A stretch of DNA of 64,000 bases from Terriglobia bacterium (GTDB taxonomy: Bacteria > Acidobacteriota > Terriglobia > Terriglobales > Acidobacteriaceae), in contig JAIQFT010000006.1 of the NCBI GenBank assembly GCA_020073185.1, positions 1 to 64,000 on the forward strand. Reading direction: 5' to 3'. Shown one piece after another: positions 26,285 to 58,338 of the stretch. The first letter of the stretch is position 1. The number at the start of each line of letters is the position of its first letter. Under the pieces are notes generated by a model. It was not told the origin of the DNA and did no database searches. It saw only the letters and a program-made list of their open reading frames with translations. The translations under genes were made by a program, and so were the position numbers.

Positions 26285-26318
26285 AGCCGTTTAGGAATTG
26301 CTGTAACCGCCGAGGAGG

Positions 26319-26378
26319 GGCACGGCTTCAGCCGTGCCGTTGAGGCCCGGAAAATTATCCGGCTTTAGCCGCTGAGGG
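26319..26378. repeat. REP-like palindrome, family A (solo copy)
   Basis: Perfect hairpin GGCACGGCTTCAGCCGTGCC (26319-26338), then GTTGAGG, and after a gap CCGGCTTTAGCCGCTGAGGG (26359-26378). The same two-part unit surrounds the tyrosine transposase at 53681-53747 and, inverted, 54202-54269. It lies in the pnp 3' region and could act as a terminator or RNA stabiliser. Confidence 0.75.
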
Positions 26379-52501: not shown

Positions 52502-53644
52502 ATGCAAGCCATTCTCGCCCTGGAAGACGGCCGAGTCTTCCGCGGCAAAGGTTTTGGCGCCCAAGGCGAATGTTACGGGGAAGTTGTTTTCAATACCTCC
52601 ATCACCGGCTACCAGGAGATTTTCACCGACCCTTCCTACGCCGGCCAGATCGTCGTTCTCACCAATCCCGAGATCGGCAACTACGGCACCAACGACGACG
52701 ACAACGAAGCCACCCGCCCCTACATCGAGGGCCTGATCGTCCGCGAGTTTTCCCGCATTAGCTCCAACTGGCGCTCGCAACAGGTTGCCGATGAATACCT
52801 GGAGCGCTACCGCATCCCGGTGCTCGCCGACATCGACACGCGCGCGCTGGTGCGCCATCTGCGCGATCACGGCGTCATGCGCGGCGTCATCTCGACCATC
52901 GAAACCGATACCGACAAGCTGGTCGCCAAAGCCCGCTCCATCCCCAAAATGGACGGCACCGATCTGGCGAAGGTGGTCACCACCAAGCAGCGCTACGTGT
53001 GGGACACCGGCGAACGGTCGATTGAACCTACTGAAGTTGTCGGCGTGAAAGACGCCGAGCCCGAGCGCCACGTGGTCGCCTACGATTTCGGCATCAAGCA
53101 CAACATCCTGCGCAAGCTGGTCAGCGGCTGCTGCCGCGTCACGGTCGTGCCCGCGGAAACCAACGCCGAAGACGTGCTCGCACTCAAGCCCGACGGTGTC
53201 TTCCTCTCCAATGGTCCCGGCGACCCCGAACCCTGCACCTACGCCCAGGAAAACATCCGCCGCCTGATGGGTCGTGTCCCGATATTCGGCATCTGTTTGG
53301 GCCACCAGTTGGTCGGGTTAGCGCTGGGCGGCAAGACCTACAAGCTCAAGTTCGGCCACCACGGCGGCAACCACCCGGTGAAGCAGTTGCACACCGGCAA
53401 AGTCGAGATCACCGCGCACAACCACAACTTCGCCGTCGATCCCGACTCGCTGCCCATGAGCGAAGTCGAGCTGACGCACATGGACCTGAACGACAACACG
53501 CTGGAGGGCCTGCGCCACCGTAACCTGCCGCTGTTCTCGGTGCAGTACCACCCCGAGGCCTCACCCGGCCCGCACGATTCGCATTACCTGTTCATCGATT
53601 TCGTGGCCATGATGGAGGAGTGGAAGGGGAGGAACATCGGATGA
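52502..53644 (+). CDS. carA: Carbamoyl-phosphate synthase small subunit (glutaminase)
   Basis: 380 residues. N-terminal CPSase small-chain domain ([16 protein letters not shown]) and a class I glutamine amidotransferase with nucleophile Cys265 in [13 protein letters not shown] and the His/Glu pair in [15 protein letters not shown] 52502 follows GGAGAG. It supplies ammonia for carbamoyl phosphate (arginine and pyrimidine synthesis). In most genomes carB follows directly; here two inserted genes separate them. Confidence 0.96.
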
Positions 53645-53656
53645 TCTTGATCGGGT

Positions 53657-53747
53657 TACGGCTTCAGCCGCTGATTTGGCTTTGAAGGGGCGCGGCTTCA
53701 GCCGCGCCGTTGAGGGCCATGACAAAACCGGCTTTAGCCGCTGAGGG
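53657..53747. repeat. REP-like palindromes, family A, upstream of the tyrosine transposase
   Basis: TACGGCTTCAGCCGCTGA (53657-53674), then TTTGAAGGGGCGCGGCTTCA (53681-53700) continuing GCCGCGCCGTTGAGGGCCAT, then CCGGCTTTAGCCGCTGAGGG (53728-53747). These are tandem palindromes. The unit at 53681-53708 is the inverted counterpart of 54241-54269. Confidence 0.8.
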
Positions 53748-54366
53748 AAATGGGTTGAGACCCACACGAGAGCACGCGACCCACAACCAGCAGACGTACA
53801 TGGTCACCTCCGAGACGTGGGGTCGTCGATCTCTGTTTTGTGCTGAGCCTTGGGCAAAGCTGTTCATCGACACGCTTTATCACTACCGCGACTCTGGCTA
53901 CAAACTTCATGCATTTGTATTAATGCCCGAACATTTTCACGCCCTGATTACACCGACCGGTTCCCTGGAGCGCGCCATCCAGTACATCAAGGGCGGATTT
54001 TCACATCGCGCAAAGATTGAGCTAGGCTCCAATATGGAGGTATGGCAAAAGGGATTTTCCGATCATCGCATCCGTGACGCTGCAGATTGGGAAGTGCATG
54101 TGAATTACATTCACTTCAATCCGGTGCGAGCTGGGTTGTGCTCACAGCCGGAACAGTATGGCTACTCGTCGGCGCATGCCAGCTTTGAGCTGGACGATGT
54201 CCCTCAACGGCTAAAGCCAGAAACTCGGACTGCGGCCTGTGGCGCGGCAGAAGCCGCGCCCCTTCAAAGATCGAAAGAATCAAAGTTGCGATCGGGTGAA
54301 GGCGCGCCGCTTCAAAACGAAGAAAAGTTGCAAGACGAAGAAGAAGATTTGGTCCGAAAACTCTGA
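53710..54366 (+). CDS. REP-associated tyrosine transposase (Y1_Tnp, HUH type)
   Basis: 218 residues from the TTG at 53710; the ATG at 53719 is an alternative. The HUH motif is in LMPEHFHALITP, and the catalytic Tyr is likely in NYIHFNPVRAGL. Also VTSETWGRRSLF, KGGFSHRAKIELG and VWQKGFSDHRIRDA. Both ends of the coding region come from family A palindromes: the N-terminal 10-12 residues and the QRLKPETRTAACGAAEAAPL stretch. The family processes REP palindromes as single-strand DNA. The stop TGA overlaps an ATG (TGATG) that begins a copy of the carB start. Confidence 0.85.
   Translation: MRAMTKPALAAEGNGLRPTREHATHNQQTYMVTSETWGRRSLFCAEPWAKLFIDTLYHYRDSGYKLHAFVLMPEHFHALITPTGSLERAIQYIKGGFSHRAKIELGSNMEVWQKGFSDHRIRDAADWEVHVNYIHFNPVRAGLCSQPEQYGYSSAHASFELDDVPQRLKPETRTAACGAAEAAPLQRSKESKLRSGEGAPLQNEEKLQDEEEDLVRKL
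54202..54269. repeat. REP-like palindrome, family A, inverted, inside the transposase 3' end
   Basis: CCTCAACGGCTAAAGCC (54202-54218) and GGCGCGGCAGAAGCCGCGCC (54241-54260) followed by CCTTCAAAG. It is the reverse complement of the unit at 53681-53747, so the transposase core is bracketed by inverted copies. Confidence 0.8.
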
Positions 54367-54395
54367 TGCCACGCCGCACCGACATCTCGAAGATC
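54363..54395 (+). repeat. 33-bp direct repeat, copy 1 (duplicated carB start)
   Basis: Identical over 33 bases to 54874-54906, the true start of carB, beginning CTGATGCCACGCCGCACCGA. It begins inside the last codon of the transposase and ends 5 bases into non-carB sequence. The pair brackets a 478-bp segment holding the GIY-YIG gene. Confidence 0.9.
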
Positions 54396-54413
54396 AGCAG
54401 CACCCTTAGCGTG

Positions 54414-54472
54414 TGTCATCCCGAGAGAGCGCGCGCGGACAGATTCGCGCGCGAGCGAGGGACCTGCTTTTA
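54414..54472. repeat. Interspersed palindrome, family B, left of GIY-YIG gene
   Basis: Left arm TGTCATCCCGAGAG, inner stem of CGCGCGCG (54430-54437) with CGCGCGCG (54446-54453), right arm CGAGCGAGGGACCTGC. It ends at the ATG of the GIY-YIG gene. Confidence 0.8.
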
Positions 54473-54876
54473 ATGCGGCGTGAATGGCATTTCGCGGTGT
54501 ACATGATGGCCAGCAAGTCGCGCCGGTTATATACGGGAATGACGAACGACCTTCACAACCGCGTATTTCAACATAAGAACGACCTGCTGGACGGCTTCAC
54601 CAAGCAATACAAAATCCATCGTTTGGTGTACTTCGAGCTTTACTCTCAAGTGATCAATGCGATCAATCGCCAGAAAGAAATTAAGGGCTGGCGTCGCGAG
54701 AAGAAGATTGCGCTGATCGAATCACTCAATCCAACTTGGGAGGACTTGGCTGAACACTGGTACGACTCTCACATCTACGCCCCGGAACAGCAGGTCCCTC
54801 GTCGCTGCGCTCCTCGGGATGACACACCACAAAATTTGCCGACAACAGCGAAAGCACTGGTGAAGCGAACGAACTG

Positions 54877-54877
<1 letters not shown>
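54473..54877 (+). CDS. GIY-YIG nuclease-domain protein (UPF0213/YhbQ-like)
   Basis: 134 residues; the family is usually about 90-100. The GIY-YIG motifs appear as [20 protein letters not shown], then Arg in NRVFQHK, Glu in [18 protein letters not shown] and the Asn in SLNPTW. The last about 30 residues ([16 protein letters not shown] and on) are encoded by the inverted family B palindrome at 54791-54828. ATG 54473 directly follows another family B palindrome, so the gene sits between two inverted copies. Stop TGA overlaps the carB ATG. Related single-domain proteins are nicking endonucleases with unclear roles. Confidence 0.88.
54791..54828. repeat. Interspersed palindrome, family B, inverted, inside GIY-YIG 3' end
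   Basis: CAGGTCCCTCGTCGCTGCGC then TCCTCGGGATGACACACC. Its reverse complement reads GGTGTGTCATCCCGAGGAGC onward, matching the left arm at 54411-54426. It encodes part of the C-terminus of the nuclease. Confidence 0.82.
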
Positions 54878-58206
<3,329 letters not shown>

Positions 58207-58252: not shown

Positions 58253-58338
58253 GTGTCATCCCGAGCGAGGACGCGCCATACAACCAGCGCGCCCGTTGTT
58301 GGCGCGCGGGTTGGCGCGTCCGAGTCGAGGGACCTGCT
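58253..58338. repeat. Interspersed palindrome, family B (solo copy after carB)
   Basis: Left arm TGTCATCCCGAGC, then GGACGCGCC (58269-58277) pairing with GGCGCGTCC (58313-58321) around an inner CGCGCC...GGCGCG stem, right arm GTCGAGGGACCTGCTG. The same arms frame the GIY-YIG gene. Confidence 0.75.

Follow-up and report, generated by a model that had tools for sequence, protein, structure and literature searches.

A GIY-YIG nuclease gene between outward-tagged TGTC repeats in an acidobacterial carA-carB gap: a candidate REP-type mobile unit with an unrelated enzyme

REP sequences tagged at one end with CGTC, TGTC or CCTC, with a stem of 8-9 bp and a loop of 4-5 nt, were reported in 2013 without a dedicated transposase (Di Nocera et al. 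2013, PMC3733652). In the sections of that report on which we draw, dimers of these CGTC-tagged REPs are predominantly of one arrangement (HH), their distribution is wide, the organisms mentioned include A. lipoferum, N. aromaticivorans and S. meliloti, and no tyrosine transposase gene was found flanked by CGTC repeats. The same sections describe RAYT-REP/REPIN units (REPtrons) and TIRtrons, the latter built around RAYT-like TIRYT genes, and record TIRtron units in Acidobacteria.

The unit described here, a GIY-YIG gene between repeats that we term family B, resembles the REPtrons and TIRtrons as presented in those sections in that a small nuclease gene lies between inverted repeats. Further features in common with REPtrons are gene-free doublets in one orientation with near-fixed spacers, an intergenic position and an enzyme that is single-copy in places. 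However, the REPtron enzyme is an HUH tyrosine enzyme, whereas that of the B unit is an unrelated Slx1-like GIY-YIG protein and its repeats are tagged TGTC/CGTC. With the CGTC-tagged REPs of that account, family B shares the tag and a wide distribution, and it may share the prevailing dimer arrangement; those REPs were without an associated transposase, whereas here a nuclease gene lies between the repeats, and the B copies of the stretch analysed here vary in their inner sequence and form a weak stem.

The window, by which we mean the whole analysed stretch of 64,000 nucleotides, belongs to a Terriglobia genome of 4.66 Mb in 121 contigs (G000). Between carA and carB it contains a Y1 ORF followed by a GIY-YIG gene, all four genes being co-directional on the + strand. 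The features are as follows.
26316..26378, + strand: family A unit without a gene (repeat scan)
52502..53644, + strand: carA (TIGR01368, 508 bits)
53680..53747, + strand: left family A unit, two palindromes, its arm inverted relative to 54241-54269 (repeat scan)
53710..54366, + strand: RAYT/Y1 tyrosine transposase ORF (NF047646, 114.3 bits), true start probably further in
54203..54269, - strand: right family A unit, inverted, overlapping the Y1 ORF (repeat scan; outer bounds by eye)
54363..54395, + strand: carB-prime, the duplicated carB start (exact 33-nt repeat of 54874-54906)
54366..54473, + strand: mini-ORF of 35 codons opened by carB-prime (ORF reading)
54414..54468, + strand: left family B repeat, TGTC tag outward (repeat scan; arm 54415-54467)
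54473..54877, + strand: GIY-YIG nuclease gene with ATG at 54473 (PF01541, 33.2 bits), frame open from GTG 54413
54789..54824, - strand: family B repeat on the right, tagged TGTC on its outer side and overlapping the GIY-YIG ORF at its end (repeat scan; arm 54790-54823)
54874..54906, + strand: carB start, second copy of the duplication (33-nt exact match to 54363-54395)
54877..58206, + strand: carB (TIGR01369, 1466 bits)
58255..58337, + strand: family B copy without a gene, with a long inner insert (repeat scan)

An initial annotation had placed two nuclease genes between carA and carB, each inside its own inverted repeat family, with solo copies of both families elsewhere in the window. Both observations were confirmed: the Y1 gene lies within family A, the GIY-YIG gene within family B, and each family has a gene-free copy in the window. 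The duplicated 33 nt, which the initial annotation had missed, consist of 30 nt from the start of carB plus the three bases that precede it, and the two copies flank the GIY-YIG unit. Along the insert, stop and start codons overlap by one base three times, at the Y1 stop and carB-prime (TGATG, 54366), at the carB-prime stop and the GIY-YIG ATG (TAATG, 54473) and at the GIY-YIG stop and carB (TGATG, 54877). As the carB start is present on both sides of the B unit, arrival of the unit appears to have rebuilt it.

The Y1 ORF is of the REP-associated type, scoring 114.3 bits against the NCBIfam model REP_Tyr_transpos (NF047646, cut-off 80). Its score against Pfam Y1_Tnp was barely above threshold (23.1 bits, cut-off 23) and that against the IS200 model was below it (14.8 bits, cut-off 55). 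The family A arms (53680-53708 and 54241-54269) are 29 nt long and 97% complementary, with a second family A palindrome on each side (53730-53747 and 54208-54218), and family A folding compared with shuffled sequence gave a z-score of -3.19. Inverted arms were present at 27 of 30 Y1 loci of the host family. By eye, the GTAG tag was absent from the family A palindromes of the window. The Y1 unit belongs to the known RAYT-REP/REPIN kind and, in the terms used in the sections of PMC3733652 cited above, is closer to a TIRtron.

The association of family B with GIY-YIG genes was assessed in 109 distinct loci of the host family, comprising the 30 best and further matches, with an arm score of at least 14 as the threshold and regions 750-1100 bp away as distal controls. 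Arms reaching this score bracketed 88 of the 109 loci and 0 of 99 distal controls, leaving 21 loci under the threshold. The nearest B tags pointed outward on both sides at 79 loci, inward at 4 and the same way at 11, while 15 loci had one side untagged; in the distal control, tags on both sides occurred in 0 of 100. A cross-phylum sample was also assembled with one genome per species, in which 80 loci were kept of 569 relatives and 3 of the 80 had too little flank. Arms above the shuffle threshold were found at 46 of the 77 testable loci, several of which are also counted among the host-family loci, versus 1 of 53 distal pairs; 31 lay under the threshold. These loci come from Acidobacteriota, Verrucomicrobiota, Chloroflexota, Planctomycetota, Bacillota, Pseudomonadota and other phyla. 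The tie between family B and GIY-YIG genes therefore extends beyond the window, through the host family and across phyla.

Thirty Y1 loci of the host family served as a control for small intergenic inserts. Family B was found on both sides of 0/30 of these and of 83/109 GIY-YIG loci; family A gave 20/30 and 2/109, respectively. The A/RAYT and B/GIY-YIG systems thus separate cleanly. E. coli yhbQ, a relative in the same fold family, was not bracketed (arm score 9). Together these data show that the pairing of GIY-YIG gene and B repeats is general, with a preferred orientation and with specificity. The suggestion that two independent REP-processing systems had landed in this operon holds as to independent repeat/nuclease units in one gap; processing of the repeats is what we infer for both enzymes.

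Family B copies also occur without the gene. A strict B pattern gave 3,826 occurrences in 227 of 300 host-family genomes, while a reversed control pattern occurred in none. Among the first 100 of the 117 B copies listed for one genome (G188), 26 of 27 close pairs were tag-out, with spacers of 14-15 or 21-23 nt in 25 of these 26 and of 121 nt in the other; in the same 100 copies, the single tag-out neighbour pair 150-1500 bp apart contained the one GIY-YIG gene detected in that genome. This layout of doublets around the GIY-YIG gene is the same as that of REPINs around a RAYT. Doublets are not universal, since in two genomes of another genus (g9; 30 loci) B copies were almost all solo; the lone tag-out pair there encloses a GIY-YIG gene. 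The median B count was 8 in the 188 gene-positive genomes and 1 in the 112 gene-negative ones, a correlation that ignores kinship and on which we do not lean; B copies were present in 68 of the 112. Ordinary strong hairpins were rejected as a description of the B copies, because those of the window, folded singly, do no better than shuffled sequence (z -1.16, +1.63 and -0.10).

The TGTC tag on both B arms of the window is a variant of the CGTC tag. The window copies depart from the 8-9 bp stem and 4-5 nt loop through a weak fold or a variable inner insert, and canonical copies elsewhere (CGTCATCCCCGCGAAGGCGGGGATCC) fit this description by eye. Dimers are described here as tag-out (26 of 27 close pairs in G188, with copies in genus g9 almost all solo) and in the 2013 report as HH. 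What links the B repeats of the window to the CGTC superfamily is their tag, the way the dimers are laid out and an enzyme family in common.

Thirty-two plasmid records matched a GIY-YIG protein of Sideroxydans, among them records of A. lipoferum 4B, N. aromaticivorans and S. meliloti; 12 were examined, together with one record found through a search of the suf site. Of the 12, eight had arms scoring at least 22, seven of them with CGTC-type tags outward on both sides, and four fell below that score. CGTC tags accompanied the GIY-YIG genes of A. lipoferum, N. aromaticivorans, Shinella and others, while Planktothrix and Spirosoma had TGTC-type copies outward on both sides with weak arms (12). 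The arms in the S. meliloti record were of another orientation, and in the Photobacterium and R. tumorigenes records the gene was not bracketed. At up to two mismatches, the canonical CGTC pattern had 147, 217 and 77 copies in Sideroxydans, Nevskia and Burkholderiales genomes, respectively; the Burkholderiales gene (L140) was not bracketed on both sides. A search of the open-licence PMC literature, preprints excluded, found no link of GIY-YIG genes to REP or CGTC repeats, which is weak evidence of absence.

In A. lipoferum the GIY-YIG gene lies between sufB and sufC with one CGTC doublet on each side, and the spacing of the two suf genes is 617 bp versus 87-129 bp in three Azospirillum relatives; no clear target duplication was visible at this site. 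Shinella PSBB067 has its own GIY-YIG gene between CGTC repeats at the same place. The sufB-sufC gap is a second shared landing place (L348, L364, L365), occupied in Sphingomonas parapaucimobilis by a DUF559 unit. Nuclease genes of the Vsr-like DUF559 type, flanked by C/G-rich palindromes in inverted orientation, form a third pairing in plasmid records: of 26 matching records, nine were examined, and five of these (L365, L367, L369, L371, L372) had arm scores of 21-102, one (L373) scored 13 and three scored 7-9. Three of the five lie within operons (sufB-sufC, pnt and paa).

In the window ORF (154 aa), GIY-YIG was the only Pfam domain detected (33.2 bits). PF01541 was matched by 25/25 aligned members, the other Pfam match being T5orf172 in 3/25 aligned segments, and Pfam found no separate NUMOD-like DNA-binding domain in the 25 segments, which cover the aligned part only, or in the window ORF. 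The AlphaFold2 model was confident (mean pLDDT 92), with 1zg2 (UPF0213) as its closest fold and Slx1 next, and the sequence match to 1zg2 had an E-value of 1e-8. The protein thus has sequence and fold in common with the UPF0213/YhbQ and Slx1 proteins. YhbQ is a DNA damage response nuclease of E. coli, and Slx1 is a repair nuclease of eukaryotes that carries an additional domain; yhbQ differs from the genes studied here in being a chromosomal gene without such repeats.

Across the 25 aligned sequences, Tyr11, Tyr21 and Gly23 were invariant, and Arg31 and Glu68 were each present in at least 90%. From its spacing to Arg31, column 68 is the putative metal-binding glutamate. The window copy has Gln at this position and so may be inactive; the copy of the same insertion in a genome of the same genus (G001) keeps Glu. 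The dN/dS ratio was 0.03-0.16 in 10 of 11 pairs, the eleventh being not computable, and these ratios indicate strong purifying selection on the gene. The nearest named matches to the window protein are from Acidobacteriota. The distribution is patchy, with 188 of 300 host-family genomes positive at E 1e-10, and copies occur at many sites, up to eight in one genome. Tandem copies were observed at single loci in two genomes (L043 in G178 and L049 in G199), one G199 copy having a stop.

The carA-carB gap was compared at 30 loci including that of the window, with both gene ends found in 27; no carA end was in reach at L028, L030 and L035. The gap was 100 bp or less in 8 of the 27, among them an empty site of 39 bp in a genome of the same genus (G003). 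The expectation that a normal carAB gap spans a few bases is therefore borne out in part, as the remaining gaps contain other sequence. A GIY-YIG gene was present in 3 of the 27 and a Y1 gene in 5. Unrelated genes were also seen in the gap at L009, L012, L014, L018, L027, L029, L030 and L032; by eye, they include a 438 aa ORF in G002, several secreted-looking ORFs and a toxin-antitoxin-like pair. The car gap of the host family is a general insertion hot spot. One contig recorded as part of a Clostridia MAG from the rumen (L107) has a GIY-YIG gene upstream of carA and carB, and its car genes are about 67% identical in DNA to those of the window.

With all locus searches pooled, the GIY-YIG gene was found in ten distinct car gaps. 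Placed on a tree built from 110 GIY-YIG sequences, the ten genes required seven label changes, and none of 200 bootstrap trees united them in a single group; the starred branches alone force only two changes, many forks being open, and clustering of the car label exceeded that in 499 of 500 shuffles. The seven changes and the clustering suggest repeated arrival at car with some descent, and a single vertically inherited gene at this site was rejected, descent explaining part of the pattern. The G001 genome keeps the GIY-YIG unit and the carB duplication (30 nt), and all that remains of its A unit is the left repeat with some ten bases after it. Given this remnant, both units were probably already present in the common ancestor of G000 and G001.

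Other duplications of the carB start were found beside a Y1 unit (L011, 36 nt aligned) and beside a GIY-YIG unit (L082, 14 nt), and the Y1 unit of G015 (L268) is flanked by a 25-nt direct repeat that reads, by eye, as the end of carA. Flanking repeats were tested at 178 loci, eight doubly recorded loci (including L067-L069) being counted once; of these, 125 were bracketed. Direct repeats scoring at least 20 flanked 9 of the 125 (control 2/1500) and 3 of 27 Y1 loci. Among the nine are several repeat arrays, and L037 and L038 represent one event; clean flanking duplications are those at carB (33/30 nt), L064 (61 nt) and L139 (24 nt). A fixed-length target duplication beside the repeats was not seen, only a minority of loci having duplications, of 33, 61, 24 and 14 nt, at unequal distances from the arms. 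Insertion sequences and MITEs resemble the GIY-YIG unit in having terminal inverted repeats and a nuclease gene (88 of 109 family loci) but differ in the fixed-length target duplication next to the repeats, which the GIY-YIG units are without.

The insertion site in G188 was taken as a second site and compared in 24 congeners, both flanks being found in 21, which were sorted by eye. Five were filled, one held a degenerate unit, nine were empty (38-75 bp) and two had a scar of the right end; two others had B repeats without the gene, in G152 as a doublet, and two had other inserts. The empty versions of this site and of the suf site contained no repeats.

We propose, with a probability of roughly 0.7, that the GIY-YIG gene and its two outward TGTC repeats constitute one mobile unit, that the repeats without the gene, solo or in tag-out doublets, derive from it as non-autonomous elements in the way that REPINs relate to RAYTs, and that the protein is an Slx1-like nuclease acting on the paired repeats. 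Freestanding GIY-YIG homing endonucleases, such as the phage seg genes and the I-TevI type, are likewise selfish GIY-YIG genes between conserved genes, and the gene might accordingly spread by cutting gene-boundary targets and being copied in by repair, with the repeats as passengers, terminators or insulators. The repeated use of the car and suf gaps resembles the site preference such an enzyme would have, and GIY-YIG homing enzymes exist (PMC1564403). We nevertheless regard this as unlikely: the B unit has no extra DNA-binding domain by Pfam in the aligned segments or the window ORF, its copies lie at many sites with up to eight per genome, and its repeats hold one orientation and also form gene-free doublets. 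Boundaries of inverted repeats and gene-free derivatives distinguish it further, and we know of no homing endonuclease that has them. Some insertion sequences target REPs, and the gene could similarly be a separate element that inserts into pre-existing B doublets made by something else. The B copies in genomes without the gene, the common orientation of doublets and gene units and the G152 doublet would all be expected from such a landing pad. However, the car duplication lies outside both repeats, which argues that repeats and gene came as one unit, and the repeats are absent from the empty second site and the empty suf site; we assign this explanation a small probability.

RAYTs move REPs in other systems, and both kinds of unit occur in the car gap, both with some long flanking duplications, as would be the case if a RAYT or another host transposase moved both repeat families and the GIY-YIG gene were incidental cargo. 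The absence of family B from the flanks of all 30 Y1 loci led us to reject a RAYT as the mover of B, and with it the explanation as a whole becomes very improbable; the cited part of PMC3733652 likewise has no tyrosine transposase between CGTC repeats. Strong purifying selection, and nearest solved structures that are UPF0213 proteins, would also suit a YhbQ-like host gene that serves in housekeeping or under stress, near which repeats accumulate by chance or as RNA hairpins. Such a gene would hardly be expected to be patchy and multi-copy, with 188 of 300 host-family genomes positive and many homologous sites lacking it, nor to have neighbours with biased tag orientation when yhbQ itself is unbracketed, and we consider this highly unlikely.

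For the mobile unit proposed above, the association of nuclease with repeats and the movement of the unit are well supported; that the nuclease cuts its own repeats, and the route of integration, are what we infer. The inverted repeats would pair to form a hairpin or branched DNA, and the Slx1-like nuclease would recognise this structure and cut there. The released or copied unit would then reach a new intergenic site via break repair, which may sometimes copy a few tens of bases of the target, so that an essential gene hit at its end would stay whole. At car, where the gap also contains the RAYT unit, the GIY-YIG unit would have inserted at the carB start, leaving that start in two copies. 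The long and unequal duplications, which also occur beside Y1 units, may partly reflect survivorship, because a gap of a few bases within an essential operon would tolerate only those insertions by which the adjacent gene is rebuilt.

By analogy with RAYTs and REPINs, the Slx1-like GIY-YIG nuclease is a good candidate for the cognate enzyme of the CGTC/TGTC repeats, in a similar system with an unrelated enzyme. At about even odds, a broader reading would be that each bacterial REP superfamily is driven by a small nuclease of its own, unrelated to the others (HUH tyrosine enzymes for GTAG and TIR, Slx1-like GIY-YIG for CGTC/TGTC and possibly the Vsr-like DUF559 for a C-rich family). These would have converged on one design, a nuclease between outward-tagged inverted repeats with gene-free doublets, and on one niche, the spaces between genes of essential operons like car and suf. 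Many operon-internal genes annotated as 'GIY-YIG nuclease family proteins' are probably mobile-element genes. A cognate nuclease, if this is correct, would make the spread of CGTC/TGTC repeats testable in CGTC-rich laboratory strains. It would also mean that the origins of REP-type elements involved more than one unrelated enzyme, and it would place a small Slx1-like nuclease among the enzymes able to drive a mobile element.
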